Assembly (NCBI GenBank): GCA_003116975.1
Contig: BGKB01000019.1
Location: 582,843-646,842, forward strand
DNA: 64,000 nucleotides
Reading direction: 5' to 3'
Source: Aurantiochytrium sp. KH105
Lineage: Eukaryota; Sar; Bigyra; Thraustochytrida; Thraustochytriidae
Within the stretch, counting starts at the first letter, position 1; every line of letters begins with the position of its first letter. This document shows, piece after piece, positions 17,001-64,000 of the stretch. A program made the translations under genes and the position numbers. The notes beneath the pieces were generated by a model. The model saw only the letters and a list, made by a program, of their open reading frames with translations, did no database searches and was not told where the DNA came from.

Positions 17001-17206
17001 GGCCCGGATCCGGTTTGAAGACTCACGATCCAGGGAATGGTGTCCGTTTCGGTCTCTTGGCCGCCCACGATGTTCAAGACTCCGCTGCCGAAGTCTTCGA
17101 CTTGGTCGGGCGTCGCGAGGTCGGCCTCGTCCGCATTCGCGGGCGCAACCGCCAGCACCATTGCCAGGACCGCCAGGCCCTTGACCACCTTGTTCATCTT
17201 GGCCAT
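14078..17206 (-). CDS. Secreted trypsin-like protease with four SRCR domains
   Basis: 1042 residues from the chosen Met at 17206, which begins a clear signal peptide (MAKMNKVV, hydrophobic core, cut near APANA). The ORF runs open further upstream, but that part is GC-rich and signal-less. A peptidase S1 domain starts at IVGGQ; the triad is in LTAAHC, NDLALL and CQGDSGGP, with Asp in DSCQGDSGGP giving trypsin-like Arg/Lys preference. The domain carries a charged insertion of about 70 residues. Four scavenger-receptor Cys-rich modules follow (examples VACREVGY, VACASMGF, VACKSMGF, VACRSMGL), joined by Pro/Thr linkers such as TPTRAPVTAP. The C-terminus has two related short repeats (GVLRFGSG and GLVRFGQG). 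Likely role: extracellular or surface proteolysis and ligand binding. The residue before IVGG is Asn, so activation by a tryptic enzyme is not expected. Confidence 0.87.
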   Translation of the reverse strand: MAKMNKVVKGLAVLAMVLAVAPANADEADLATPDQVEDFGSGVLNIVGGQETETDTIPWIVSLQTGSGPDLEYGHICGGNLIAPGWVLTAAHCVDSIVLPGPLAAGQTRAGVRIILGETDLDASVEETRQVRDVVDIIVHPEYDSNTNVNDLALLRLSRDIVDVQPVNFREAAKLEEKGMLLTVAGYGSTDGYFGKKMSENTTDTASSKDNRNLRRAAEGSNDENAVATNNKGNAKGGDLLDVDGERDLYGYGINYITYYSESILLRKVDVPFVPYKDCVKGIYEKSEIDKKTMICAGYEKGGKDSCQGDSGGPLFRDGGVGNQYLAGIVSWGYGCAAPKAYGVYTRVSTFVDWIESYVLDGVDSNEVPTSLLQIAPTPKPTRKPKFANKVIKKSSTARLIYSNPGFIFVKPPNSRKFKVLRVNADFGDVEAAVACREVGYADGALRWDLQTEMPDVPKKFERYSPIFYCRGGESALHDCEYDDQHSAYGNYYYGEPSRPAVVECFDTKTPTRAPVTAPSDPSGAGNIIASGLRTRLHWVSGFDKNVGRLEVMYRGGEWSPICLSSYSALGETARKVACASMGFTGVSREYDPPLSSSASSSTYGFGNPSCDGLATNLLECAFSVHVQCARYAYLECTNDTPNPTASPTAPPPTPQPTETPRTVIASGPSARLVYANPGVLEVLDDNREWGTVCAAGLDYKSRDVACKSMGFASSSLMDLSNYFAYVPDGLALSTQSIQCNGDEASLAECTLVSGTSCGSASYSPDTASGHAMLSCEEEAIRFVAKFADAAEGALSGTLLVSFDGGATFGQVCDDYFDDNAAAVACRSMGLAGGTYTSVTGTNSFFMDNVDCTGSESALSQCSFFSTHNCGSSETIALQCELATDAPTPFPTQPPTHDVTDFGSVLCNEGEACTTDGAGVLRFGSGEDYGFTIFSETTTFVCSPGVIGYDPAPSTPRGERVCSFAQLSAMASSGDLADDFQRLGKRGEVVDVPGSGLVRFGQGNIWSYIVRNDADELECSTQSFPGSFTSSADQYCEFLAIA

Positions 17207-17922
17207 CTTCTTCACCGCCTGCGCCCGCGTTTTGCTCTCCGCTGCGCACGGCCGAGCTCGAGTCTGCTGGGCTTTCGCGAGCCCTGGACGGTTTCCAGGC
17301 ACTCCCAGTTCCGGTTTTGCTTTTGCTCTTGCTTTCGCTGCCTCGCTCAGCTGTCTCGCCGCGAGGCCCCTCAGCGCCTGGCTCGGCCCGAGCAGCCTCT
17401 TGCCCAAGCCGGTCTGGCTGCCCTTCGAGTTCCGCCTTTGCCGGCCGCGCTCGCCGTCGCGTTGATCACGACTCGGATGCGACTCCGTCTCGGCCTCTTC
17501 GCCTTGGAGCTGGCACTTTCGCAGACTCCCGCGACACCCCCCGCAGGTCGGGCCCGAAGCCGCCGGGCCGGCCTGCGGGGGGGGGGCACCCCAGGCACGC
17601 CCGCGCCGCCGGGCCGTTCCCAGCGGCACGCGACCCCCCCTCGATCACGAGCCTGGCCGCAAGACGCGAGCCAAACCCGAGCCGTGGGCGCGGCTCGAGC
17701 TGCGCGAGCTGCGCAGCGGCGGAGGCCGCCGCCCGTGCCAGCGCTCGGCAGGCGGCCGCGCTGCCGGCCGAGCGGCCGGCAGCGTGCACGCGCTGCTTTT
17801 ATTCTCACAGCCAGGCCAGCCAGCCAGGCCTACAACGAGGAGAACGCGAGGGGGGGGGGGGAACGTGTCGTACGTTGGCAGTGCCGGTAAAAGGGACTCC
17901 AGTGGACGAAGGAGTAGTATAC

Positions 17923-25697: not shown

Positions 25698-26070
25698 TCC
25701 TCAACATGTTTTGCCCGAGGCTTGCTGCTCTGTTCTGCTCTGCTCTTTGCGCGACGGCAGAAAAAAAGAAGGGAAAAGGGGACGAAATGAGCGTGTCCCC
25801 GTTTTTTGCCGTTTCGACCCAACTAACGCAGGGGCTCAGGCTTTTCGGCAAGGCCTTGGCGGATGAGGAAGGGGTCCCAAGAAAGAGTGCACGTGCCCGC
25901 TTGTACAAGGAGGGCTTTTGGCCTGGACGCGCAGTACTCATTCTCCGGGCTGCGGCGCGGCCCTTGGGGATGAAAAGACGGGCGGCCCAGCCTGGGTGGT
26001 GCTGTGCTCGCTTGCTCGCTGGCTGGCTGGCTGACGGACCACGCAAACGAAGTGCCCTGCTCACGCACTC
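25698..26070. other. Spacer between presenilin and the NACHT-ankyrin gene
   Basis: 373 bases holding the presenilin 3' end and the short upstream region of the next gene. No TATA box or gene was recognised. Confidence 0.5.
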
Positions 26071-29000
26071 ATGGAGACAGCCGCGAGGGATGATCTGCGC
26101 GGGTCCAGGGCGCTCACGCAGCGTCTGAACCGCGCGGGAGCCAATGCGCTCCTTCGCTCGCTGCTCATCGACTTGCGTCTTTACGCCCGTCCAGGAGAAG
26201 ACCTTGTGCGCTTCATGTGGACGTGGTTTGCCAAGGGCAGGACCGTCGCCTTGCAGGGCCGAGAGCGTCGTAGCGCTGCCGCCGCTGCGCTCGACGAGGG
26301 CCTCCGGGAAACCACGGCTCCCATCCTGCAGGATCTCTTGGCTGCTCTTCTTCGCACGGATCCTGAAGACGCAGCTGCCTTTGTCGCTGACCTCCTGTAC
26401 AAGCGACTCTGCGCAGCAGGCGTCGGGGGTGTTACAGTCGTACAATGCAAAGAATGCCGAGTTGTATCGCATCTGAGCCTGCGACGTGGCGTTTTCGAGA
26501 GCTCGAGTGCGTTTCCGAGCTCTGAGAGCGAGTACAGACATTTGCTGCAGACCTTGCTCGCAAGCTATGATGATGCTGAGGACCTTGCAGAGAACCTCGT
26601 GCAGCAGGTAATCCGGGGCGTTCCGGCCGTTGACATTCCTTCGCCCAGCAACGACGACGCGCAAGCGTGCTCAGGCCCTTTTGTTGTGGCTTGTGACACG
26701 TGTGCACACATTTGCAGCTGGAAGCCTCTTGCAAACGCGAGTGCATTCGCATCAAAAACTCTTGAAAATGGCGAGGATAAAGACGCACAATTTCAAATTG
26801 AGGTCGAATGGACGAGTGTACCTGCTGTGCTACGGGATCAAAGAAAGGAGATCGAAGGCATGATACCACATCTGTTTTCAAGTGCCGCGCGCGTCGAGCT
26901 CGAGGTGCTTGCGGGCGGTTACTCTTCCGCCTTTGTGTTCAAGTGTCGGTCGTGGTGCTCCGAAGGTCGAGAGGAGGAGCAGAGCGTGGTGAAAATTGAC
27001 GATGAAGAAAAACTGCATAGCGAGGTGGCGCGCATGGAAACTGCTGCGCCCTATCTGGGCGATAGCGCGCCAACTGTGCTGGCTTATACGCGTCGAAAGA
27101 CAACCGCGGGTGTGCGCATCCAGCTGTGCGGGGCTTGCTGGACCTTGCCGCGCTTCATCAAGGAGAACTCGACCCTTATTCTTACCCTCAAGTCGCTCTA
27201 TGCGATGCAGTACAAGGACCAGCGCGTCTTGCAATCAAAGTCTGCTTATCCCTCGCGGGAGTCCATGATGCGAATCATGCAGCCACCTCGAAGCGACGAA
27301 CGGTCGCCAAGGCGCGATGAAGGCTTTAAAGATCGCAGCCGAGGGACACGAGTTGACACCACGCAAGAGACAGCCTTGCTGTCTCGTCGGCCCTCTTCAG
27401 GTCGACACTTTGTGACAGATTTTGAGGATCTCTTGTCTATGGTTTTTGGCGAAGTCATGGCCAAATGCTATGAAGATTCGAAGCGCAAAGCGCACGTCGA
27501 CCTGGTGGAATTGTACGATTTGCGTTCCAAGATGCAGCGTGGTATCTTTGATCAATTGGACCTTTTGCGAGCACTGGAGCTGGATCGACTTGGTTTGGAT
27601 CGCGCTCGCCTGGGTACGGCAGAGGACATTGCTCGATTTTTCGCGGGCTTTTTGCGCCAGGTCGATGGGCGCGACATGGTCAACCTTGCGCTTCAGCACA
27701 ATGATCTGAATGGAAACAACGTTCTTGTGGATGCCATGGGCATGGCTTGGGTGATTGATTTTGCGGACTTTGAAGAAAGTCACATCGTTCGGGATTTGGC
27801 CAAGCTTGAAACCTGCCTCATGTTTGAGTATACGCCTCTGGTCGACTCGGTGAGCGTGTCCCGCGCTTTGCAGTTTTGGCGTGCGCGACTGCCCCTGCAA
27901 GGCCTGGAGCCGCTCTTTGTGGCCGTGGGTAGGTTGCGTCAGTTTGTGGCAGATCTCACGGAAAACGCGGGTCGTTCTTCGCAGCATGCTTTTGCCTTGC
28001 TCGCGTACACGCTGGATGTCTTGCGCTACCCGGATGTGAGCGTCGCAAGCAAGCTGTGGGCGCTGCAATCATGCATTCTTCGCGCGCAGGAAATCCTTGC
28101 GGACCAATCGCCAGCGCCCGCGGCGCTCTACGCAGAGCTACATTCAACGCAGGGGCTCGATCTCGAGGGCGTGGAGACCCGTTATCTAGCGGGCTGTCGT
28201 CTCAAACACGCCTACTACACGGACGCTGTAACGTGCGAGCGTCTGCCCATCTCACCGAGGCTGGCTCTGGCATACAATGCGACAGTGTGCATGCCAGAGA
28301 ATGTTGTTTCGGAGCGACTGGAAGAGGACTTTGATCGCGTTTTTCTTTTACGCGAAGATGTAGAGGATGGCAGTTTGTGCGGCCGCTTGGCCATCTTTGG
28401 CAACAGTGGCATGGGCAAGACCTTGCTCGTCTCACTGCTGGTGACTCGCCTCGTCGCGCTTACCAATCTAGTTCCTTATGTGGTGAATGCCGTGGAGTTG
28501 GCACAAACTTGCACTCGACTCGCGAGTCCCGGTGAACAAGGCGAGGAGGATCTGCTTGACGCCTTTTGGTCGGCAAAGTATGGAAGCCGCGCGCTGCGCA
28601 CTGCAATGCTTCGTCGTGCGCGAGCACAGGGTCGGCTTGTGATCGTCTGTGATGGACTTAGCCAGGCTGCTGGATCGTGGGAGGTGTTACTGCGCCGTCT
28701 CGTGGCGCTCTCGCGACCTTTGCTCGAGGAGACAGAGTCAGAGGCGCCAGCTTCGACGGACGGGACGGACTCGACGGACTCAACGGACGATGGGATGTCT
28801 TCTGGCATGGAGGCAGATGAAACGAAGCCCCGGTCAGCTGCTACACGACAAGGTATGACCGAAGTCCTTGATGAGGGCGGAGAGATGTCCTCAAATGGCT
28901 CGCGAGAGCACGAAAGACTTGGGGAAGTGCGGCTTGTGCTTGCGACGCGTCCTTTGAACGACCAAATTCAGCAAGCTGTGGAAGGCGCGGGATTTATTCG

Positions 29001-31848
29001 ATGCCACTTGCAACCCCTCGAGGAGAAGCACATTTTGGCCTTTGCGGAAACATACATGCATCGTGCACCACCACGACTTGTTGCAGACGCGCTGCGACGA
29101 GATCATCGTCTATGCCAGGACACGCTTCAAGTGTCTTTGCTGCTGACGTCGATTTTGGAGACGACGGCCCAGGTCAAAGGCCAAGAAGAGAAGACTGGGG
29201 AAAGGGACGAAGAGGAGGAAGAAAAGATGGCCGATTCCCCGGACGAAGCCGATGAGGAAGGTAAGATAGCCGATCGGTGGAAAAAGGTGCACAGATCGCG
29301 AAGCTCCATTGAGCAACTCTTCTCGGCGCTGATTGACCATAATCTCGCGCCACTGCGGCTCCCGCTGCTCGAGCAGACTTCATTGAAACGGATTCTTGCA
29401 AAGGTGAGCTTTGACGTGCAAGTATCGGGCCAAGCGGGGTCCTTTTTCTCGATGAAGTCGCTCTTGGATGCTACGGGATCAGAGCTGGATTTCGAGGGCG
29501 GAAAATACTGGATCGGCGCAGCTCGTAGTGACGTAGGGGAGGGTGCGGGTGCTGGAACGGCACGATTGTTGTCCACGAGTACGTTTGCACGTGCGTTGAA
29601 TGCTCTCTTTGAGTCCGTGCATATGGATGCACATCCATTGCTGCGCTGCAGAGACCGAGCGCAGCCCGTGCTGGTGCGGGAGTACGCCATTGAAAGCGCG
29701 AATGCACAGGCGTACCTTGCGGCCTCGTACGCTGTTGCCTCTTGCAGAGGGCGGGAAGACTTGGAGCAATTAATGCGAAGGCTGTTGCAACAGCCGAATT
29801 GTGTGGGCGATCGGGTGGCCAAGGCTCTTGATGCCGCACTGCGGGACGTGACACGGTTTCTCGTCAGCGATCGCGTCCGAGAAGACGTCGAAGCATTGGA
29901 GACAGAGGTGCAGAGACGACTCGGGGGTGGCGAACGTTTTCAGCGAGTGGGTCTGCTCGTTGAAAGTCTGCTCGCGCGGGTCAAGAATCCTCGCAACAGG
30001 GCCAATCTGCGGCGAGTCTCTGATCTCTATGAGCAGTGGGAGATCTCGGCTTTGCTGAGCGTGGTGGAGAGCAATTTGGCCTTTTTGGCATTTCTGGTGG
30101 AAATGTTGCCGATTGATTTACGCGAAGTTCTCGTCAACGAGGTAATGGCTCCCGAAGTACGGGATGAGCTGCTCTGCATGAGCGCTGGATCGACTCAATT
30201 CGCGGCAAGCGTGGTACCGGCTCTTGTGTGCGGGAGAAGTGGGCCTGTGGCCAAGGGCCTTGCCGTGTCTGCTTGCACGCAAAGTCCACGAACGGGCTGG
30301 AGTGTGCTCATGCACTGCGCGGCCTCGTGCCAGGAAGCTGATGTGCTTCGGATGCTGCTGGCATGTGGCGCAAATGTGGACGATAGTCCGGAGCGAGCGC
30401 GAGGTCTCACGGCGCTGCACGAGGCGTGTCGGTCGGGAACAGTCGAGACCGTGCGCGTGCTTGTGGACGAAGGTGGCGCGCGCGTGAACCAAGCGACTCG
30501 TACGGGATTAACGCCGCTATTGGTGGCATGCAATGCGCGACGCGCGGATATTGCGGCATTCCTGATCTCTCGTGGAGCCCTTTTAGATGCGACGACAGAG
30601 TCTGGGCTCACGGCCGGATACTATGCTGCTAAACGGGGTTGCATACAGGTGCTCACTGTGCTGGCCGAGGCAGAGGTGGACTCTGGCAAGGCAGAAAATG
30701 TGTCGACGTATTTGCGTGAGCATCGCGTGCACGTGCGCTATGGATCGCGAGAAGAGCATTTGACGTTGCTGGGCACGGCTGTGAAATGGGGACGCCCCGG
30801 GCTAACGCAGTGGCTGTTGGCGCACGGCGCGGATCCGGACGTGCCGATTGAGATATGCAAGCATGAGATCTTGCCGGTGTGGCTGGCGGCCAAAATGAAC
30901 GGGCTTCGCTCGGTACGATATCTATCGGAGGCTGGGTGTCGATTCGATGTGTGTGACTCGCGGACTGGGTGTACGCCGCTGTTGGTAGCATGTCTGTACG
31001 GTCGCAGTCGCGTGGTGGATTTTCTATTGAGCCTTTCTGAGGAGCACGGCGTGGACGTGTGCGCGCGCTCGACGCATGGCGAGTCGTGTCTCGAACTGGC
31101 GCTGCGACGTCCCTTTGTGAATGTCACACGCGTATTGGTGGAGCGTGCAGATCTTTGTGGCCGGGCCTTTCTCGACGCCGTGGGCCCAGCGCTGACAAAG
31201 CTGTCCCAGAGCGCGCAGCAGGCGAGTAAGGCATTGAGCGTGCTGCGTTTGGTCTTTGAGAGCCGCGTCTTGGGTCCTCGCGCGCGGGATTCGAAGGATG
31301 TCCTTGCCCTTTGCGTGCGCAACTTTGCCGCGCATGATAATGTTCCGGCCCTCGAATTTCTGGTGACGAGAGTGCCCCAATTGCGTGAGGACGGACGACT
31401 TGTGAGCGTGATGCTTCCCGTCGTGTTGCGGGCGCGAAACTTGGGTCTGGCGCGACGACTCGTGGAGGGGGTTGCAGAGGAAGAGATTCAGGAGGATGCA
31501 ACAACAGCCCAGCTCCGCAGTGCGTTGATGAAGGATGGTATCGATGACGACACTGAAGAAGGACTTTCTCTTCGTGTGGACTGTGGTACTGGGGAGCTTG
31601 AGAATGCCATCGATGGCTACCTTGCCGCGCATGCCGTGGCTTCGCCCTTTGTGCTCTCGGATGGAGGAAGCGGCGAAAAGAAGAGTAGCAGGACGCGCAA
31701 GAAGAAGATGAAGACAAAGACGAAGACGAAGACGTTTTCGAAAGGGCCGTTGCCTATAGACGACGACCTTGACGACCGCGACAACGCCACGTCAACAGCG
31801 GCGTTCGAGGACGATGGTGGTAGTGGTCAGCAGTCACGAAAGAAGTAA
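26071..31848 (+). CDS. Kinase-like / NACHT / ankyrin-repeat NLR-like protein
   Basis: 1925 residues in one frame. Residues 20-215 are an uncharacterised N-terminal module with two CxxC pairs (Cys126/129, Cys208/211) suggesting zinc. Residues about 260-680 look like an aminoglycoside-phosphotransferase/kinase-like fold: catalytic loop QHNDLNGNNV (Asp545) and metal Asp563 in WVIDFADFEE. A STAND-type NTPase follows, with P-loop FGNSGMGKT (Lys783) and Walker B LVIVCDG (Asp861), then acidic linkers and a long helical region. Ankyrin repeats span about 1408-1700 (GLTALHEACRSGTVETV, GLTPLLVACNARRADI, GCTPLLVACLYGRSRV). The tail is Lys-rich. This is the effector-NTPase-sensor order of NLR proteins. 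By analogy, ligand binding to the repeats would drive NTP-dependent assembly and signal through the N-terminal module (inference). No membrane segment is visible. Confidence 0.83.
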   Translation: METAARDDLRGSRALTQRLNRAGANALLRSLLIDLRLYARPGEDLVRFMWTWFAKGRTVALQGRERRSAAAAALDEGLRETTAPILQDLLAALLRTDPEDAAAFVADLLYKRLCAAGVGGVTVVQCKECRVVSHLSLRRGVFESSSAFPSSESEYRHLLQTLLASYDDAEDLAENLVQQVIRGVPAVDIPSPSNDDAQACSGPFVVACDTCAHICSWKPLANASAFASKTLENGEDKDAQFQIEVEWTSVPAVLRDQRKEIEGMIPHLFSSAARVELEVLAGGYSSAFVFKCRSWCSEGREEEQSVVKIDDEEKLHSEVARMETAAPYLGDSAPTVLAYTRRKTTAGVRIQLCGACWTLPRFIKENSTLILTLKSLYAMQYKDQRVLQSKSAYPSRESMMRIMQPPRSDERSPRRDEGFKDRSRGTRVDTTQETALLSRRPSSGRHFVTDFEDLLSMVFGEVMAKCYEDSKRKAHVDLVELYDLRSKMQRGIFDQLDLLRALELDRLGLDRARLGTAEDIARFFAGFLRQVDGRDMVNLALQHNDLNGNNVLVDAMGMAWVIDFADFEESHIVRDLAKLETCLMFEYTPLVDSVSVSRALQFWRARLPLQGLEPLFVAVGRLRQFVADLTENAGRSSQHAFALLAYTLDVLRYPDVSVASKLWALQSCILRAQEILADQSPAPAALYAELHSTQGLDLEGVETRYLAGCRLKHAYYTDAVTCERLPISPRLALAYNATVCMPENVVSERLEEDFDRVFLLREDVEDGSLCGRLAIFGNSGMGKTLLVSLLVTRLVALTNLVPYVVNAVELAQTCTRLASPGEQGEEDLLDAFWSAKYGSRALRTAMLRRARAQGRLVIVCDGLSQAAGSWEVLLRRLVALSRPLLEETESEAPASTDGTDSTDSTDDGMSSGMEADETKPRSAATRQGMTEVLDEGGEMSSNGSREHERLGEVRLVLATRPLNDQIQQAVEGAGFIRCHLQPLEEKHILAFAETYMHRAPPRLVADALRRDHRLCQDTLQVSLLLTSILETTAQVKGQEEKTGERDEEEEEKMADSPDEADEEGKIADRWKKVHRSRSSIEQLFSALIDHNLAPLRLPLLEQTSLKRILAKVSFDVQVSGQAGSFFSMKSLLDATGSELDFEGGKYWIGAARSDVGEGAGAGTARLLSTSTFARALNALFESVHMDAHPLLRCRDRAQPVLVREYAIESANAQAYLAASYAVASCRGREDLEQLMRRLLQQPNCVGDRVAKALDAALRDVTRFLVSDRVREDVEALETEVQRRLGGGERFQRVGLLVESLLARVKNPRNRANLRRVSDLYEQWEISALLSVVESNLAFLAFLVEMLPIDLREVLVNEVMAPEVRDELLCMSAGSTQFAASVVPALVCGRSGPVAKGLAVSACTQSPRTGWSVLMHCAASCQEADVLRMLLACGANVDDSPERARGLTALHEACRSGTVETVRVLVDEGGARVNQATRTGLTPLLVACNARRADIAAFLISRGALLDATTESGLTAGYYAAKRGCIQVLTVLAEAEVDSGKAENVSTYLREHRVHVRYGSREEHLTLLGTAVKWGRPGLTQWLLAHGADPDVPIEICKHEILPVWLAAKMNGLRSVRYLSEAGCRFDVCDSRTGCTPLLVACLYGRSRVVDFLLSLSEEHGVDVCARSTHGESCLELALRRPFVNVTRVLVERADLCGRAFLDAVGPALTKLSQSAQQASKALSVLRLVFESRVLGPRARDSKDVLALCVRNFAAHDNVPALEFLVTRVPQLREDGRLVSVMLPVVLRARNLGLARRLVEGVAEEEIQEDATTAQLRSALMKDGIDDDTEEGLSLRVDCGTGELENAIDGYLAAHAVASPFVLSDGGSGEKKSSRTRKKKMKTKTKTKTFSKGPLPIDDDLDDRDNATSTAAFEDDGGSGQQSRKK

Positions 31849-55707: not shown

Positions 55708-58398
55708 CCTGAAAAGAAGCAACCTAACCACCTGGATGCTGATTTTCCCTGTTTGTACAAGAGAATGTCGCGTAAGTTGATCTTGCAAAAGAACGACGCA
55801 TAAGATCTTGCCCTGAAGAGGACAGTCGCCATCTTGTCGCCATCCAAAGTAAATTATCTTAGCTCGGTCTATTCTAATTTCTTTGTTGTTGTTGTTTTGG
55901 CACATTGTATGTTTGGATGGAAGTGATAATTTGCATGGATACATGGAATGAATTGGAAAATGCTGTCATGGCGATCGGTTCTCTTTTACGTCATTTCTTT
56001 GAATTTGATGACCATCAGACATGTCAGCTCTACCTCCCAACAAAACGAGACATAAGTATCAGCTCCTTTACCGACGGTCACAGACGATGATGCTCGGCGC
56101 TACGCTAGGTCGCTATAACGCAGTCTGGAGGCTTGACGCTAAGCCAAGTAGGCGCGCGCGCTCGCTCTTGACTCGAACTGACCCAACAATGAGATCAAGC
56201 GAGAATGGTAAGCGCAGAGAGGCGACGTTGCAAAGGCGCAAAGGCGGACGCGGCGCGAGCAAGACGCACGAGGAGGGGAAATCCTGGGTCTGGCGAGCTG
56301 CAGCGGAGACGAGCGAGTCGAACCGATCCCTTCACGTTGCACCACGACTCGACCTCGGGTGCAGCAGGAAGCCAGACGAAGAGAAGGCTGCCAGAGCGTC
56401 CCAGGCCCTGGCGGACGCTTGTGATCGGAGAATCCTTGATCGACGCAGCGAAAGTGTGCTGTACACAACGCTGCTCATGCGCGTGGCGGTCTTGTAGCAA
56501 ATTTTGATGCAGCGTTGTACTTTTTTCTAAATATCATTGCGGCTGCTGGCACTGACCTTTCTGTTGATGCTATCGAAGACGGTAGTGCGGGGCAATGAAA
56601 CCCCAAATTGTAGGGGTCACGATCGTTCGCGCAGATATCGAAATTTTGAATTGTGCTTGTATCGAATATGCAGCTTGCTTTTGGTCTTCAGGCACGCAAA
56701 GAGCTCGACGGCTAAAATGACCTCATTCGGCGAGACAGTCCGTGCGTGCAAATGCTGTTTCGCGTTGCAAGCTGGAGGTGGAAGGGCAACGAAATCATCT
56801 GCGCGAGAAGATTTGGTTGGTGCTGTGCGGCGGGATAATTCATCGTTGGCAATGGGTCACTTGCTGATGAACTTGAACGCCGAGCGCTAGAGGCATGCTG
56901 TCGCCGGTGTCGCGTGAGCCTGTTCGCGCTGCAAACTAGACAATGAAGCATCTCCTCGTATTGCAAAGTTTCTGACTGCACATCATGCATGGAGTGGCTT
57001 GGAGCCGACCGACGAAAAGGAGGCGGCGGAGGCGCGAAGACGCGCGCGGCTGTCGCTAGCGCGAGCGTGTCACGAGAGGGGCGGAGATTAAGATTGCGGG
57101 TGAGTCTGACAAGCTGCGGTGAATGGAGGCGCGCGAGTTGAAAAGGTGGTCCCGCGCTGACCAACGACGCGACCTCGTGTACAGCAGCAAGCAAGCAAGG
57201 CGAAGAAAAGATTCACGCAGCGTCCAGAGGCCAAGACGAATGCTAACAGTCGAAGAAGGCACAAACGAGGTAGCGTTGATGCGCTATGCAAAATGTCACG
57301 CATGCGCGTCGCGTCAAGCCGCGTCAAGCCCGCAGTCATGCTGTCTGCAACTTGAAACTTTGTGAAAGTCGATGTTTGAGCCGACGCTGGCGGCCAAGCA
57401 GGGTTCAGGTCAATGAGTCGATGTGGCCACGACCGCTCGCTTTGCAATCATGGTGTCAAACGCGCAGCAAGCGAAAGACCTACGCACAGCGAGGAAGCAT
57501 TGCAAGGAGGACCGCCGTCATGCGCTGGGTCATGCATACTGTGCCCTTTGAGGCGTGCGTGCTCGGCCAATGCCACATCGTCAAGCCTGTTGTCGCCTGC
57601 AATGTTGCTCTGCCTTTTTTGGCATACTTAAAAGATAAATCAGTAGCGCCAAGGCGAAGTAGCTTCTTGCAATAGGTATGTAGCAGACGAGCGCCGGCCT
57701 CGGTGTCGACTCTGGGAAACTGTTTAGGCCAGCGCCGAAGTGTCATTGAGCCATATCACGCTTACGGGTACGATCAGGCAAGGGCACTTTTTGTAGCAAT
57801 TCCTGCGATTGAATGAGGGCCACAGTCGCCGCAGGGACGGAACTCGAGGCTGGCCGTGGCTAGATGGGTCAAATTCAGTCGAGAATTCGAGGCGCTCAGA
57901 GCAAGTCGGTCCCAATTAGCCTCTTCGCGCGCGTCGTATCCAGATTTGTATTTTGAGTTATGATGCCGCAGAAATTCTTGCGCGCCTCTTTCATGCCAGC
58001 CAAAACTTCTTTGCGGCCCATTTTTTGAAGAAAAGGAAGGATCGCCGATTTGATGACGAAGCACACTTGAAGATGACACTTGAAAAGGTCGGCAGACGGA
58101 GGATTGAGTTGCTACTGTTGTCATGCCAAGGTAAGTGTCGGCAGTCTTTCTAAAAGAACCCTCGAAACAGTACCAATTGGAAGAGCTTCTCATCAGCAAA
58201 AGAGTGCTTGAGGTGCGCTCTCCTCGCAATTGTAGGAGTTTCGGCGGCGGCGTCACGAATCTCCGAGGTCATAACAGAACAGAAAAAGCAAAAGTTTATA
58301 AGTGAGATATTACTATTGCATCGCAGTAAGTGAGCACAAGCAGTTAAAGTCGATCGCCCACCCACGCAGGCGTGGCACGGTAACGCAAAGCCGCACGA
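55708..58398. other. 2.7-kb spacer with a decayed repeat pair
   Basis: Several short ORFs on both strands have no domains and shifting frames. Two related segments (annotated separately) suggest an old duplicated element. A small ORF at 57953-58153 (KKRKDRRFDDEAHLKMTLEK) has a coding-like composition but no recognised match. No gene is called. Confidence 0.5.
56270..57235. repeat. Diverged duplicated segment (two copies)
   Basis: Segments near 56270-56410 and 57070-57235 share ordered blocks: GAGGGG, AGCTGC, CGCGACCTCG-like (CTCGACCTCGGGTGCAGCAG against GCGACCTCGTGTACAGCAGC), CGAAGA and GCGTCC. Minus-strand translations also agree (CCTRGRVV in both). The pair is consistent with an old repeat or dead transposon fragment. 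Confidence 0.45.
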
Positions 58399-61300
58399 TT
58401 AGGTCCCAGGTTCGATTCCTTGGATATGCAAGATATGAACCCTCCCGCTAACGTCGCCAATAACGTAAACACCTCCCTCGCGAGCTGTTACCTTACTATA
58501 GATTGCGTGATCCGTCGTGAAGCCTATGCCTTCGCTAAGCTCCACATGCGTTCCGTTCTCAACGTTCACCAACGTGTTTCTTCCAGGTGTCGTCGATGCC
58601 TCCGCTTCATCCGCGTCGAGTGCCTCGCCCGTTCGAGCGTTCCAGTAAAGAGTTTCATTGGGTGACTGTGATACAATGGTATCGCCCTGTATCACCACGC
58701 TTGTGACATAACTAGTGTGCCCCTTCAACACGTGCTGCTCCTCGCCCGACGTCGCGTTCCAGATGCGCACCGTCTCGTCCGAGGACCCACTGACGATGGT
58801 GTCGCCCTGTATCGTCACGCTGCTGACCTGACCAGAGTGGCCCTTCAACACGTGCTGCTCCTCGCCCGACGTAGCGTCCCAAATGCGCACCGTCTTGTTC
58901 GAGGACCCACTGACGATGGTGTCGCCCTGTATCGCCACGCTGCTGACCGGCCCAGAGTGCCCCTTCACCACGAGCTTCAACACGAGCTGCTCCTCGCCCG
59001 ACGTAGCGTTCCAGATGTGCACCGTCTTGTCATAGGATCCACTGACGATGGTGTCGCCCTGGATCGTCACGCTATAGACTGAACCAGAGTGCTCCTTCAA
59101 CAAGTGCTGCCCCTCGCCCGACGTAGCGTTCCAGATGCGCACCGTGTTGTCAATGGACCCGCTGACGATGGCGTCGCCCTGTAGCGCCACGCTCCAGACC
59201 GCCTCAGAGTGCCCCTTCAGCACGTGCTGCTCCTCGCCCGACGTCGCGTTCCAGATGCGCACCGTCTTGTCCGAGGACCCACTGACGATGGTGTCGCCCT
59301 GTATCGCCACGCTGTAGACGTTAGCAGAGTGCCCCATCAACACGTGCTGCTCCTCGCCCGACGTCGCGTTCCAGATGCGCACCGTCTTGTCCAAGGACCC
59401 ACTGACGATGGTGTCGCCATCGATCGCCACGCCCATGACCGGAAAAGGATGCCCCTTCAACACGTGCTGCTCCTCGCCCGACGTAGCGTTCCAGATGCGC
59501 ACCGTCTTGTCCAAGGACCCACTGACGATGGTGTCGCCCTGTATCGCCACGCCCATGACCGAACTAGTGTGCCCGTGCAACAATTGCTGCTCCTCGCCCG
59601 ACGTAGCGTTCCAGATGCGCACCGTCTTGTCCGAGGACCCACTGACGATGGTGTCGCCCTGTATCGCCACGCTGTTGACCACATCAGAGTGCCCCTCCAA
59701 CACGTGCTGCTCCTCGCCCGACGTAGCGTTCCAGATGCGCACCGTGTCGTCTTTAGACCCACTGACGATGGTGTCGCCCTGTATCGCCACGCTGGTGACC
59801 CAACGAGAGTGCCCCTTCAACACGTGCAGCAAAAAGTCGCGGGGATGAGCAAGAGTGACGCAAGTAGGCTCCAGCCATGGCTGATCAGGTGTTTGTAGAC
59901 TGAGCGCCAGGGGATCTTTTGAGTCATGACCAAGACGCGCCAGAACCTGCGACGCAAGTTCTCCGGGATCGTAGCTGAGGGCATGCACTGCTTTGCTTAG
60001 GAAGCGGGGCGTATCACTTTCGGGCGCAAAGTAGAGGCCGAGTTCGACGCAGTCGCGGATGAGGTTTCCGATTGTGGCACGTCTTTGCGCTTCATCGTCA
60101 CCGGCAGAGATGGCGCTCTTTACCCATGCAAAGTCATTCAGGAGCTCGAAAGCCTCCGCGTGCCTGCCGCTCTTGACGAGGTGAAAGACGGCGTGACGGA
60201 GCGAAAACACGCCGTCGTGCGAGCTACTGCAGTAGTTGGCCAATTGCTTATGCCCGTCTTTTTTCTTCACGAAGAGCTTTTTTCCGCTCTGCTTCTTATC
60301 TGAGAGCCAATCTGCCATCCGCTTGTGGATAAGTGCCACACGTCCATCGCCGCCTCGATATAAGAGATTGCTCGCGTCGTCGACAATATCATCCATTTCA
60401 TCTTGGTCTAATTGCAGAACTGCGCTTAGTTGCTCGACACTCAGCGGTTCACGAGCAGCTACGATCGGCGCCAGGAGCATGTTGTACCTCCACTCCCCGC
60501 CAACTTTTTCTTGCAGGCGCTCAAAGTACTCTTTGAACATGCCGCCAAGCCCATCGGGAATGGCGTCTTCCTTGGAGATGTCCTGTAGGGTCAGCACTCC
60601 ACCTCGCTTCTTCTCGTGCATCCGCTTCAGTGTCTCGGGAAGGAAGCTCGCCCAGAGAAAGAGACCTTCGGATCGCTCGGAAAGAATCTTGGCGCAAGAA
60701 GCAACGTCCTTTTGGTCCACGGTATCTCTCATGTCGCACAGCAAATGCTCGATGTGCTTTTCGATGTCGCGAAAGTTCTCTTCGTCCTTGAGCTCCAGCA
60801 CTTTAGAATCAAGGCTATTGTTAGTGATACCGCGCTGGATCTCGCCTTCGGGACGTGTGCTCACGACCAAGCTGAGCCATGCCGGCATCGCATCCTTCCA
60901 CGCACGAATGACTTTCCGCAGAACATCGTCGCTTTTGCTGCACTCGTCGAGAGCGTCGAGCACGACCACATGTCGCATCTGGTCTGGGCCGAGCTTGGTT
61001 GCAGGATTGACGATAATGGTCTTGAAAAGATCCGCCAGTGTCTTTTCGCGAAGACCCTCAAAGCGTACTTGGTCGAGTGCTTCAGGGTAATTCGGCACGG
61101 TCAGGCACAGTTGCCAAGCAATGCTTAAAATTGCTTCAGCAGGTGAAGCCGCGGTCCCATCATCATGTCGAAAGAAATGGTACGCTGCCACCGAGATAGG
61201 CCGGCGCTCGATTTTGCTATGACGCCACAGGCTACGTACACGTGACGACTTTCGGCGTAGCTCGGCGTGTTCATCCGCCTTGCTCTTTTTGACATCTTCA

Positions 61301-62517
61301 GCAGTTTTCAGAGCGCCTCCACGGTGGCAAAGCTCGGCCATGATGACGCTTTTGCCGACGCCGCCGTCACCCACAAGAATGAAGACGGCACTCTGTTTCT
61401 TGTTGTACCAGTCGCAAAGCTCGTCGATGATCCAGCTTCGCGTGCCGAGGGTAAACTTTTCCGCCTTGCCCTTGGCCCATGCCTCTGAGCTGCACGGGTT
61501 CAGGCGAGGATAAATGTCACGCATCAGAGGGGTCAGGTCCGATGAAGCCTCGGGGGTCGCGATGCGCATGCGAATGGCATTGGCGAGGCGTTCGATCGCC
61601 TCGTCCGAAAAAGTCCCATTGCGTGAACTCTCGGAAAGATCCACCGGTGCTTGTCTTGTGAGCGCGAGCTGAAATCGCCCAGTCCACCCCGTTGCGGGCT
61701 TGGTCATGCCCTCTTCCAGCGCGGCGACCACGATGCGGTCAAATCGTTTGTTGCTGGCGTATTGGAACTCCTTGAGACAGTTGTCTGACCGGTCACCTTT
61801 GTTGATCTTTTCCATGTACCCCTTGGTCGCTAGGACAAGGAATACGGTTGACGAGTCGATGCCATCAGCCATACTTCCATAAATACTGCCAGACACTTGC
61901 TGAGCATCGAGCCAGACGTCGATGCCGTGGTCGCGGAGTCGCAACGCGAGTTCAATGGTCATCTTGTGTACCCATTTGTCTTTGCCCCACTCGTGCGAGA
62001 GGAAGACGTGAAAGCTCCGGCGCCCTGGCATACCTACGACACGGCCTTTTGCGGCAAGGGCTTCGGCCATCACCCAATCAGCGGCGTCCTTTATGGGCTT
62101 GCAAAAGTTGATGAACAAGTCGTCGGAGATGTACCAGGCAAGCGCGCCCATCCAGTCCTTTGTATTAGCCATGGCTTCGTCGATGAGGATGGGGACAAGA
62201 GAGTTGGGGAGGACCTTTGCCACTGCCTCGATGAGATCCCAATTGTCTTCGAGTTTTTTGCTCACGAGCAGCAGAGCGACCTCGGCATTTTTGGCCTCCT
62301 GTTCGGCCTCTGCGACGTGGCTGCCGGTGCGCACGGGCAGGCTGAGGCGGGGCTGAATCGCGTCGACCAGCTGCTCGGCCACGGTCTCGTCTGCGGGATC
62401 GTGTACGATGAGGATGGCAATGCTGACAGGAGGTTCGTCTCTCGGCTCGTCCTCGGCGCGTGCTCCATCGTCGCGGCCTCCCTTGAAGAGCGCGAGCAAG
62501 CGCGTCGCCCGTCTCAT
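58399..62517 (-). CDS. TIR-TIR-NACHT-WD40 NLR-like protein
   Basis: 1372 residues in one frame. Two TIR-like domains come first: about 30-140 (SIAILIVHDPADETVAEQL) and 165-310 (RSFHVFLSHEWGKDKW). In the second, NCLKEFQYA places Glu250 where TIR NADases keep the catalytic Glu; Glu97 is in a similar place in the first. A NACHT/STAND NTPase follows: P-loop GDGGVGKS (Lys389), Walker B VVLDALDEC (Asp521), then a winged-helix segment (AAREPLSVEQLSAVL, LIHKRMADWL) of the kind seen in fungal NLRs. Ten WD40 repeats from about residue 902 form the sensor. This is a complete intracellular receptor architecture. By family analogy, ligand binding to the propeller would oligomerise the NTPase and bring TIRs together for NAD+ cleavage or signalling (inference). 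No signal peptide or membrane span. Confidence 0.9.
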   Translation of the reverse strand: MRRATRLLALFKGGRDDGARAEDEPRDEPPVSIAILIVHDPADETVAEQLVDAIQPRLSLPVRTGSHVAEAEQEAKNAEVALLLVSKKLEDNWDLIEAVAKVLPNSLVPILIDEAMANTKDWMGALAWYISDDLFINFCKPIKDAADWVMAEALAAKGRVVGMPGRRSFHVFLSHEWGKDKWVHKMTIELALRLRDHGIDVWLDAQQVSGSIYGSMADGIDSSTVFLVLATKGYMEKINKGDRSDNCLKEFQYASNKRFDRIVVAALEEGMTKPATGWTGRFQLALTRQAPVDLSESSRNGTFSDEAIERLANAIRMRIATPEASSDLTPLMRDIYPRLNPCSSEAWAKGKAEKFTLGTRSWIIDELCDWYNKKQSAVFILVGDGGVGKSVIMAELCHRGGALKTAEDVKKSKADEHAELRRKSSRVRSLWRHSKIERRPISVAAYHFFRHDDGTAASPAEAILSIAWQLCLTVPNYPEALDQVRFEGLREKTLADLFKTIIVNPATKLGPDQMRHVVVLDALDECSKSDDVLRKVIRAWKDAMPAWLSLVVSTRPEGEIQRGITNNSLDSKVLELKDEENFRDIEKHIEHLLCDMRDTVDQKDVASCAKILSERSEGLFLWASFLPETLKRMHEKKRGGVLTLQDISKEDAIPDGLGGMFKEYFERLQEKVGGEWRYNMLLAPIVAAREPLSVEQLSAVLQLDQDEMDDIVDDASNLLYRGGDGRVALIHKRMADWLSDKKQSGKKLFVKKKDGHKQLANYCSSSHDGVFSLRHAVFHLVKSGRHAEAFELLNDFAWVKSAISAGDDEAQRRATIGNLIRDCVELGLYFAPESDTPRFLSKAVHALSYDPGELASQVLARLGHDSKDPLALSLQTPDQPWLEPTCVTLAHPRDFLLHVLKGHSRWVTSVAIQGDTIVSGSKDDTVRIWNATSGEEQHVLEGHSDVVNSVAIQGDTIVSGSSDKTVRIWNATSGEEQQLLHGHTSSVMGVAIQGDTIVSGSLDKTVRIWNATSGEEQHVLKGHPFPVMGVAIDGDTIVSGSLDKTVRIWNATSGEEQHVLMGHSANVYSVAIQGDTIVSGSSDKTVRIWNATSGEEQHVLKGHSEAVWSVALQGDAIVSGSIDNTVRIWNATSGEGQHLLKEHSGSVYSVTIQGDTIVSGSYDKTVHIWNATSGEEQLVLKLVVKGHSGPVSSVAIQGDTIVSGSSNKTVRIWDATSGEEQHVLKGHSGQVSSVTIQGDTIVSGSSDETVRIWNATSGEEQHVLKGHTSYVTSVVIQGDTIVSQSPNETLYWNARTGEALDADEAEASTTPGRNTLVNVENGTHVELSEGIGFTTDHAIYSKVTAREGGVYVIGDVSGRVHILHIQGIEPGT
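58620..59814. repeat. Coding tandem array of near-identical WD40 units
   Basis: Ten units of about 120 bases encode WD40 repeats with the core SVAIQGDTIVSGS and TVRIWNATSGEEQ. One unit has a short insertion (LVLKLVVK). Most differences between units fall in a few codons, so the array looks recently amplified or homogenised. Confidence 0.95.
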
Positions 62518-62956
62518 GCTGATCTCGCCTTAATGGCGCGAAGAAGAGGAGGACGAGGTCGAGGAGGAGGAGGAGGGAGAGCGCGCGCGCGCGCGCCTCG
62601 CAAGTTCACTTTCAGTCACAGCCGCGAGCCGGTCAGGCGCGGTGTCGAAGCGCGTTTGGATTCTGCGCTGCGTGCTTTCTTGCTTCGATGATCGATTGAG
62701 TGATTTCCGGCTGCGGTTCCCCTCGGCGCGCACACCCCCTTTTTCGTAAAAGTATACACCGCTTGGATCAAGGAGGGTGCAAGTGTTCGCTGGCGAGGAG
62801 AACCGGAAAAAAATCCTTGACGGCTCACTGTCGGTCGAGAGTCGATCACAGCGAAGTTCAAGTTGCGATGGGATGACTGTGAATGCGAATGAATGGAGTG
62901 ATTTTATTTCTCGTCGCGGCGCCGGGCTGACAGATTCTCGCTGAGGCAGCCAGTGG

Positions 62957-63033
62957 GAGGGAGAAAGAGAGAGAGAGAGAGAGGGAGAGAGAGAGAGAGG
63001 GAGAGAGAGAGAGAAGGGGGAGAGAGAGGGAGG
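62957..63033. repeat. (GA)n microsatellite
   Basis: About 75 bases of GAGA with GGGA interruptions, about 450 bases upstream of the TIR-NACHT-WD40 start. Confidence 0.95.
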
Positions 63034-63624
63034 GAAGAGCCTGGTCGGTGGCTTTATCCATCCTTCTCGTGTGCGCGTGTGTGTGATTTGGCCAGCCAGC
63101 CAGCCAGCCTGCCTACCTGCGGCTCCCTAGCTCGCACCGACCTGCGCTCGCTCGCCCGATCGTTCGCGTGCAAGTCTCGCCCCTAGCTCTTGTTGGCTCG
63201 GGCGCAAGCCCTGTGCCACGGGGCCGAGATGGCTGCTGCCACTCGCGCGCCTTCTCTCGCCAGACCAGGCCAGCCCGGAGCCGACAGCTGGCTGGCTGGC
63301 CCAGGGCGCGATGAGGAGACTGGCCACTGCGCTGACTGCTGCGATGCTCGAGAGATGGTAGAGCAGGCTCCGCGGGAGGAGGTCACAACTTGATGACAGT
63401 CTGTGTGGGATCATCATCATCATGGTTCCACTCGATCGGCGAATTCAGTGTCTGAAGTGCGTTTTTAGCACTGATTTATTACCCGGGCAAACTTGTGCAG
63501 AATTTGGACAATTGCGGCGTCTTTCGCACGGTCGCGGCTCCACGAACTCTCGGTTCAACCGCTTGTCAAATAGGGCTGTTTTCCTCTTCCAAGTGTCTAT
63601 TCAGCAAGTCGAGCAATTCGGCTT

Positions 63625-63985
63625 GCAAGTGGCAGCCAGTCATTTGCTCTACTATTATCCAGTCATTCCAGCAGTGAGCAGCCGCACCCCGCCTTACTGT
63701 CAATATTGAGCGGGGCATTGGCACCACACACAGCTGCAGATTGCAAGTGCTGCTCGACACATTTGCAAGTGCAGAACCGCCCATCGCAAGTGCAGAATCA
63801 CTGCTTGGACTTGCTGTTTGGCCTGCCAGGCTGCCAGAGGCTGAGTGAAGAGGGCGCCTAGTCGACAAGTGAATCTGTAATGCTTGCAAGTGTAGAATTA
63901 GCCATGTAAATGAAGAATTCTTTACAAGTCAATGGTAGATAAAGAGTAACCATGGTAGTAAGTGGAGCTCGACTTGATGCAAGTG
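63625..63985. repeat. Cluster of GCAAGTG(CAGAAT) motifs
   Basis: GCAAGTG occurs at 63625, 63743, 63765, 63786, 63886 and 63979, in four of these followed by CAGAA or TAGAA, all in the same orientation. The spacing is irregular, so this looks like dispersed sites rather than a simple tandem repeat. Confidence 0.7.
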
Positions 63986-64000
63986 CAGAATTTTTCCTCG

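Follow-up and report, generated by a model that had tools for sequence, protein, structure and literature searches.

The gene at 58399..62517 on the minus strand of the window (the whole 64,000-nucleotide stretch of DNA that was analysed) probably belongs to a large and fast-diversifying family of intracellular NLR-type receptors whose copies are mostly intact; a mechanism for it is proposed below. The preliminary description had put forward an NLR-like receptor for recognition or cell death; judged from the sequences of the gene and its many paralogues, a diversifying TIR-NLR repertoire with non-self recognition and an NAD-consuming output would be the best reading. The putative sensor repeats are almost constant apart from five residues, which change in nearly every repeat. 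The self/non-self recognition genes of moulds show much the same pattern, and this suggests a repertoire for recognition that evolves fast.

Domain architecture of the window gene

The gene is a single intact open reading frame of 1372 amino acids counted from the ATG, with no internal stops, and the window copy bears no sign of pseudogenisation. The order of its parts is TIR-TIR-NACHT-WHD-WD40, so that an N-terminal effector, a NACHT domain with Walker A and Walker B motifs and C-terminal repeats, the layout of STAND/NLR receptors, are present in one protein. The NTPase (residues 358-554, 60856..61446; all coordinates within the gene refer to the minus strand) matches Pfam NPHP3_N with an E of 1.4e-18, and a Pfam search of residues 330-890 also returned the NACHT family (E 3.4e-5) at 24.2 bits, under its own cut-off of 26.7. 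As described earlier, the P-loop GDGGVGKS (residues 383-390, 61348..61371) and Walker B LDALDE (residues 520-525, 60943..60960) are intact, and none of the 30 copies compared departs from the ATP-binding residues D384, K389, S390 and D524. The winged helix claimed for the protein is likewise present (residues 680-766, 60220..60480), matching HTH_TANC1 at E 8e-8 in the search of residues 330-890, while its "fungal-type" label is better replaced by TANC1-like. The one-gene architecture with ten WD40 repeats also holds: ten WD40 stretches stand among the Pfam matches listed for the protein (25 of 40 families), and together with the unit analysis they delimit residues 902-1305 (58603..59814) with a period of mostly 120 bp. 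The HET domain (PF06985) is absent among the same listed matches, the N-terminus being TIR; a search of the genome with PF06985 gave no match, and neither did its control. Searching the window against Rfam yielded nothing reaching the gathering scores.

TIR2 (residues 168-322, 61552..62016) is recognised by both profile and structure matches, with TIR_2 found at E 8.1e-15 (best stretch 171-297) in the window copy and in all 30 copies, and TIR/SEFIR structures retrieved at a best E of 5.9e-4. Glu250 (61768..61770), previously named as a candidate catalytic residue, is kept in 29 of 30 copies and replaced by Asp in one; assigned by position, it would be the putative catalytic Glu in helix C, and it keeps its candidate status.

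TIR1 (residues about 29-150, 62068..62433) had no Pfam match in the window copy. Across the family, TIR_2 matched it in 3 of 29 copies (best E 3.4e-4), and two unrelated Pfam families, with weaker E than TIR_2, matched it in 7 and 4 copies. An HMM built from 30 further TIRs that this genome encodes detected TIR1 at E 4.6e-5 in the window copy and at E of 0.001 or below in 27 of 30 copies, the best E among 2000 shuffled and 30 reversed control sequences being 2.1; a second HMM from 26 of these TIRs detected it in 26 of 30 copies (best control E 0.79). Recognition was obtained only with other TIRs of the same genome as the query profile. Counting against it, the family TIR1 profile did not match the family TIR2 profile (probability 1.2%) and retrieved no TIR from the PDB. 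TIR1 looks like a degenerate TIR on these comparisons, and the earlier claim of a tandem TIR stands for TIR2 and, in degenerate form, for TIR1, while that of two catalytic TIRs finds no support. Glu97, once suggested as the TIR1 active site, is probably displaced as well: the HMM alignment places residue 94 (Asp in the window copy, 62236..62238) in the column of the catalytic Glu of other TIRs, which is probably the right one, and this residue varies across copies (E13 K5 P5 A3 M2 D1 T1). Structure prediction of residues 1-330, run with no alignment, was uninformative (pLDDT 47) and neither backs nor contradicts TIR folds; Foldseek matches of that model, mostly sugar isomerases, were judged meaningless.

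The gene family in its genome

Querying the genome with residues 1-900 gave 55 rows, four of them second pieces of one gene, so that paralogues are present in large number: at least 51 places (both haplotypes counted) encode the family, a lower bound because only 51 of 162 candidates were scored, and 42 are nearly full length. NPHP3_N matches at all 51 places and at 29 more elsewhere in the genome. Pattern matches to the NACHT part were confirmed as relatives in none of 34 cases in viral contigs and none of 39 in genome contigs. The 3' flank of the window gene (57320..58231) is common, in whole or in part, to many other family loci at mostly 75-91% identity, and the 5' flank (62533..63452) is likewise common to other family loci, with 81% identity to L010 and 83% to L011. 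The best flanking repeat pair was a 21-nt inverted repeat (57118-57138 / 63241-63261) with 81% complementarity. TTAGGG doubles are absent from the window, and no telomere repeats were seen by eye at seven contig ends.

The N-terminal and central parts of the copies have different histories, since TIR distances between copies do not follow NACHT or WHD distances: correlation with the latter was -0.06 to 0.11 for TIR1 plus the first half of TIR2 and 0.04 to 0.27 for the second half of TIR2.

The host was approached through its PUFA-synthase genes. A PfaD-type ER domain was found in two subunits (711 and 682 bits), within open frames of 2081/2152 and 1845/1857 amino acids, each of the two genes appearing twice; a match above the cut-off of the PfaD-type family was also obtained in one of the 14 genomes used as controls. 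The ER domain has been placed in PfaB and PfaC of PUFA synthase (PMC13311796), and a haptophyte is described as having a related enzyme. The sequences of these genes point to a thraustochytrid (Stramenopiles) host.

Two rival explanations bear on the family as a whole, and we regard both as very improbable. If the copies were mostly alternative haplotypes or assembly artefacts, the family would be small. The assembly does seem to contain both haplotypes, given the duplicated PfaD genes; the window gene and L010 form a syntenic pair with 92% flank identity, L024/L027 (C88/C59, core identity 96.5%) seem to be a second one, L013/L014, L035/L037 and L033/L035 (93-95%) may be haplotype pairs, and C123/C51 and C262/C2 score alike. 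At least 26 of the 51 places are no more than 15 kb away from the end of a contig, making assembly breaks possible, and N occurs in 4 of the 30 fetched copies. Halving 51 nevertheless leaves about 25 genes per haplotype, and for many of the 30 copies retrieved, at least one part diverges by 10-40%. The gene might instead encode a STAND scaffold for development or cilia, like nephrocystin-3, TEP1 or TANC, as the best NTPase score for NPHP3_N and the TANC1-like winged helix would fit. However, DUF4062-NACHT proteins resembling nephrocystin-3 and NWD1/TEP1 exist separately in this genome, as 97% identical pairs (L001/L002 and L003/L004), and a hypervariable family of 51 places would be unlike housekeeping scaffolds.

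Hypervariable positions of the WD40 repeats

From 202 WD40 units, 11 were removed to leave 191 and then 22 more to leave 169 clean units of 40 amino acids from 29 genes. These are near-constant save at positions 4, 5, 7, 21 and 23, although the second filter favours constancy at the non-variable positions because it used those positions. Over the 191 units, entropy was 2.3-3.7 bits at the five positions and at most 1.73 at all others, and the 169 units carry 153 distinct five-residue strings. Positions 5 and 7 flank V6 and positions 21 and 23 flank D22, codons 6 and 22 staying nearly constant, so that high unit conservation is combined with variable sites paired around two conserved residues, a trait of HNWD-type repeats. 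Our model predicts positions 4-5 to fall within the d-a loop, 7 to begin strand a, and 21 and 23 to belong to the b-c turn. In the Podospora NWD family, codons 7, 9, 25 and 27, which flank conserved 8 and 26 and sit in the d-a loop and b-c turn at the propeller top, are under positive selection (PMC1805685). Four of our five positions appear to be these four sites, matched by pattern and place in the fold rather than by alignment.

Within genes, pN at the five sites was 0.553 and pS at other codons 0.173, a ratio of 3.2 (bootstrap over genes 2.3-4.4) that rose to 5.1 when the 19 genes whose units exceed 0.9 identity were taken alone; the units are not independent, being related and recombining. 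At the variable codons themselves pN/pS was 1.22 (1.08-1.36), which counts against selection, and pairs sharing a residue at one of the five sites use different codons for it at roughly double the rate observed at other positions; together these values imply that part of the excess could reflect local mutability or age. Comparing the window gene with L010, 25 of 50 variable-site residues differ versus 34 of 349 others (Fisher p 1e-10), while in the last three repeats only 1 of 15 variable sites differs, which counts against the trend. Of the 260 pairs of units that match at every other position, 256 differ at the five sites and 244 join different genes, and the nearest unit lay in the same gene for 8.1% of units versus 3.7% when permuted (largest 7.9%), patterns that do not separate exchange from recent duplication.

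Recent amplification without recognition, in which blades are re-amplified singly, as often in WD40 propellers, and the five positions are merely those least constrained by the fold, is unlikely in our estimation. Every major lineage has given rise to highly repetitive propellers (PMC9218822), and the shared flanks indicate segmental duplication. Against this, relaxed constraint predicts pN near pS, whereas pN was 3.2 times the pS of other codons (yet 1.22 at the variable codons themselves); the five sites appear to include the selected Podospora sites; and nearly all unit pairs identical elsewhere differ there. Somewhat less probable still is that a mutator, such as a diversity-generating retroelement or a deaminase, acts on the variable codons, which would then not be shaped by selection alone. 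In its favour, synonymous turnover is roughly doubled at the five codons relative to the others, but all four bases vary without the adenine bias of such retroelements, the intervening codons 6 and 22 hardly vary, and the non-synonymous excess (0.553 at variable versus 0.060 at other codons) is larger than the synonymous one (0.453 versus 0.173).

Proposed mechanism and relation to known receptors

Returning to the diversifying receptor repertoire, we propose that the WD40 propeller is the sensor, the five residues of each blade making up a variable binding face. Binding of a ligand would free the NACHT ATPase, the NACHT domains would oligomerise, and the oligomer would gather TIR2 domains so that NAD+ is cleaved or processed via Glu250, upon which the cell would be killed or an alarm signal begun. 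TIR1 may act as a non-catalytic partner surface aiding assembly. New specificities would come from exchange of WD40 units across the family, with selection at the five positions, and also from swapping of TIR and NACHT parts; the recognised targets may be non-self cells, viruses or bacteria.

Plant TIR-NB-LRR receptors also combine a TIR output, an NTPase switch and a variable repeat sensor in large shuffled families, with NB-ARC and LRR in place of the NACHT/NPHP3_N and WD40 found here. The Podospora anserina NWD/HNWD genes (het-d, het-e, het-r) share NACHT and near-identical WD40 units with our family, and the HNWD N-terminus is a HET domain, described as TIR-related, where ours has a tandem TIR pair (PMC1805685, PMC12881547, PMC9815663). 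The two families also differ in the spacing between the conserved sites (16 residues here, 18 in Podospora), in the fifth variable position here against four, in size (at least 51 places over two haplotypes against 10 members) and in host, stramenopile-type against fungal. NLRs of Chytridiomycota and Pezizomycotina likewise carry a TIR-clan effector before the NTPase (PMC9815663); compared by description only, the available text of that source mentions neither tandem TIR nor hypervariable WD40. Amphioxus TIR-[NB-ARC]-WD40 and TIR-NACHT proteins are similar fusions of TIR, STAND NTPase and WD40, but the WD40 form uses NB-ARC, and tandem TIR and hypervariable repeats do not figure in the available text (PMC2575513). 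The cyanobacterial WRAP STAND / TIR-STAND pair brings together STAND and TIR with WD40 repeats that are highly repetitive and turn over rapidly, in two coupled bacterial genes rather than one eukaryotic gene family (PMC9218822).

Two fungal phyla account for 84% of the eukaryotic highly repetitive propellers in one survey (PMC9218822), and enrichment of such repeats in NLRs has been called fungus-specific among the plants, animals and fungi compared (PMC4986451). A search of one literature library found no report joining thraustochytrids with a TIR domain, and none on a thraustochytrid or labyrinthulomycete NLR, NACHT or TIR among the matches listed.

A bolder reading, which we offer tentatively and with more doubt than confidence, is that a single-celled stramenopile has antibody-like combinatorial receptors: dozens of TIR-NLR loci would have in common a stock of hundreds of interchangeable WD40 blades, and exchange of units, selection and perhaps mutation at these sites would keep renewing the five-residue binding patch of each blade, with allogeneic or viral non-self recognition leading to NAD+-dependent cell death and the same four sites as in moulds reached independently. 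If a stramenopile-type protist shares this mode of diversification, at apparently the same surface sites but with a TIR output, either deep ancestry or convergence would follow, and the family gives a unicellular system for asking what such receptors see.

The window gene and its paralogues

The gene at 58399-62517 (-) is a single open reading frame of 1372 aa without interruption. Pfam searches with the encoded protein returned TIR_2 (8.1e-15), NPHP3_N (1.4e-18) and ten stretches of WD40, and residues 330-890 searched on their own additionally matched HTH_TANC1 (8e-8) and NACHT (3.4e-5, slightly below its cut-off). The domains and motifs of the TIR1-TIR2-NACHT-winged helix (WHD)-WD40 protein named in the preliminary description are therefore real. 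Upstream of the gene, GCAAGTG[C/T]AGAA occurs four times at 63763-63990. No other site in the window matches it even when one mismatch is allowed, and four matches were also attained in 6 of 100 shuffles.

Searching the genome (367 contigs, 76 Mb) with residues 1-900 gave 55 rows, four of which were second pieces of genes already counted, leaving at least 51 places including the window gene (58-100% identity; a lower bound, as 51 of 162 candidates were scored). Counted from the search table, 42 of these begin no later than residue 33 and reach 899 or 900, among them two split over two rows and one carrying an in-frame TGA; the other nine are without part of the query, some of them at contig ends. 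An NPHP3_N match overlaps all 51 family places, and 29 further NPHP3_N places lie outside the family.

Sequence comparisons were made with 30 places. In 13 of these the open frame ran to the limit of the retrieved sequence, and 4 contained N. Residues 330-890 had an average column identity of 87%, compared with 70% in TIR1 and 69% in TIR2. Across the 435 pairs, nucleotide distances of TIR1 followed those of TIR2, closely in its first half (r = 0.85) and less so in its second (0.56), and NACHT_N distances followed those of NACHT_C (0.83). TIR1 distances were uncorrelated with those of NACHT_N (0.11), NACHT_C (0.04) and WHD (0.02), and thus the TIR and NACHT parts have had separate histories among the family copies.

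Many family loci also have flanking sequence in common, about 0.9 kb to either side of the gene. The 3' flank was also observed on contigs C175, C115, C23, C213, C41 and C113 with no listed family gene beside it, where either genes were lost or members were left unscored; the flank copy on C213 is about 3.4 kb away from an NPHP3_N match. The window itself ends at the end of its contig, C19. Among the 37 family places on contigs of known length, 23 lie within 15 kb of a contig end, and three further places begin within 15 kb of base 1 of their contig, so that at least 26 of 51 are near a contig end against at most 14.5% expected; the figure for other TIR loci of the genome is 6 of 30. This excess may reflect subtelomeric position or assembly breakage.

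About 6.5 kb 3' of the window gene has a syntenic partner on contig C185 (92% identity), adjoining the family copy L010. Identity is higher, 97-98%, in four further pairs that look like haplotypes, so the C185 region is either a divergent allele or a homoeologue of the window region. Elsewhere in the genome, PfaD (PUFA-synthase enoyl reductase; one of the 14 control genomes also exceeded its cut-off) was found in long open frames at 711 bits in two places and 682 bits in two, and haplotype doubling would explain the two copies of each gene. PfaD-type domains are reported in both PfaB and PfaC of thraustochytrids by a source that also cites a haptophyte whose PUFA synthase differs (PMC13311796). 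By these genes the host is probably a thraustochytrid or a near relative.

The two TIR domains and other TIR genes

TIR2 obtained a TIR_2 score in all 30 copies, and a PDB search with its profile retrieved TIR and SEFIR structures (best 3h16, E 5.9e-4). Residue 250 is Glu in 29 copies and Asp in one; judging by its position and by TIR biology, we take Glu250 to be the putative catalytic glutamate.

TIR1 of the window copy had no Pfam match. Among 29 copies, TIR1 matched TIR_2 in three (best 3.4e-4), and two unrelated Pfam families were matched by 7 and 4 copies with weaker E-values. When a profile was built from 30 TIRs that belong to other genes in this genome, it detected TIR1 at E<=0.001 in 27 of the 30 copies (window copy, 4.6e-5; copy L038, 4.6), against controls of 2000 shuffled and 30 reversed sequences that reached E 2.1. 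With the same profile, hhalign gave a probability of 94%, covering the second half of the domain; on the other side, profile comparison of TIR1 with TIR2 of the family yielded no match, and the PDB search with TIR1 found no TIR. Glu97, proposed as the candidate NADase glutamate of TIR1, is probably not the catalytic residue: in the alignment the catalytic column falls on residue 94, seen as E, K, P, A, M, D or T, and Glu97 (Glu in 24 of 30 copies) lies one helix turn past it. TIR1 is probably a degenerate, non-catalytic TIR.

At least 150 places in the genome match TIR_2, counting those of the family; of 258 candidates, 150 were scored. Other TIR architectures comprise COR-A then TIR (L040), Roc and COR-A then TIR (L056), ankyrin repeats then TIR (L061 and, similarly, L065), and a 639-aa open frame that ends in a C-terminal TIR and whose N-terminal part has no Pfam match at 1e-4 (L039). 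The locus pairs L001/L002 and L003/L004 encode DUF4062-NACHT proteins, with an HTH_NWD1 helix present in L001 and nephrocystin-3-like TPR in L003; a 2026 preprint describes DUF4062 as a TIR-like NADase (PMC13174449). Within the window, a 1937-aa open frame at 26035-31845 (+) with TCAD9 (2.2e-22), AAA_16 (under cut-off) and ankyrin repeats is a second STAND-like architecture near the window gene, and a 1188-aa frame at 14081-17644 (-) combines Trypsin and SRCR domains.

Variation in the WD40 repeats

The WD40 set comprised 202 units from 29 genes, reduced to 191 by removal of 11 with poor match or X/N, and to 169 by a second, stricter filter on the non-variable positions. In the 191 units, entropy at positions 4, 5, 7, 21 and 23 of the approximately 40-aa unit was 2.9, 3.7, 3.4, 3.5 and 2.3 bits, against 1.73 or less elsewhere. 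G, N, D, K, S, W, R and Y are frequent at these five sites, which form 153 distinct strings among the 169 units. Outside them, 260 pairs of units were identical; 256 of these pairs diverge at the five sites, and 244 link units of different genes.

Within genes, pN at the five sites was 3.2 times pS at other codons (0.553 versus 0.173; gene bootstrap of the ratio 2.3-4.4), and 5.1 times in the 19 homogeneous genes. With pS taken from the five codons as well, pN/pS was 1.22 (1.08-1.36). Since codon differences in same-residue pairs are about twice as common there as elsewhere, local mutability or greater age possibly contributes in part. Between the window gene and L010, nucleotide identity is 94-96% in TIR, NACHT and WHD and 91% in the WD40 part, in which the five sites show 25 differences in 50 residues, against 34 in 349 elsewhere (p 1e-10); in the final three repeats, 1 of 15 five-site residues differs.

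A single-sequence model of residues 890-1295 (pLDDT 89, pTM 0.69) gave the designed propeller Tako8 as top Foldseek hit by E-value and the WD40 domain 5yzv as closest fit (TM 0.91 on target, rmsd 1.2). By the strand list of the first two repeats, positions 4 and 5 of the modelled propeller lie in the loop preceding strand a, and 7 at the start of strand a; the turn joining strands b and c holds 21 and 23.

Comparison with known receptors

The Podospora NWD family has 10 members sharing NACHT-WD40, with units in concerted evolution and codons 7, 9, 25 and 27 under positive selection; these flank conserved 8 and 26 and lie on the propeller top, 7 and 9 in the d-a loop and 25 and 27 in the b-c turn (PMC1805685). 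Likewise, our positions 5 and 7 surround V6 and 21 and 23 surround D22, in corresponding parts of the propeller, and are apparently the four Podospora sites, equated by pattern and place in the fold; the additional variable position 4 is a difference. Recognition specificity in Podospora is reported to reside in the WD40 part (PMC12881547), and its output domain HET is described as a remote TIR relative with a conserved glutamate (PMC9815663). By analogy, the window protein would work like an HNWD receptor. We do not count it as a member of the HNWD family, because HET was not found among the Pfam matches listed and the host does not resemble a fungus. The combination of TIR, NTPase and WD40 is not new by itself, since amphioxus has TIR-[NB-ARC]-WD40 proteins (PMC2575513) and some fungi have TIR NLRs (PMC9815663).

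The window gene thus belongs to a hypervariable TIR-NLR repertoire of a protist, which confirms the preliminary description and is larger than it had claimed. Judging from the sequences, this family may function in immunity or allorecognition, with NAD+ cleavage and cell death as predicted activities.
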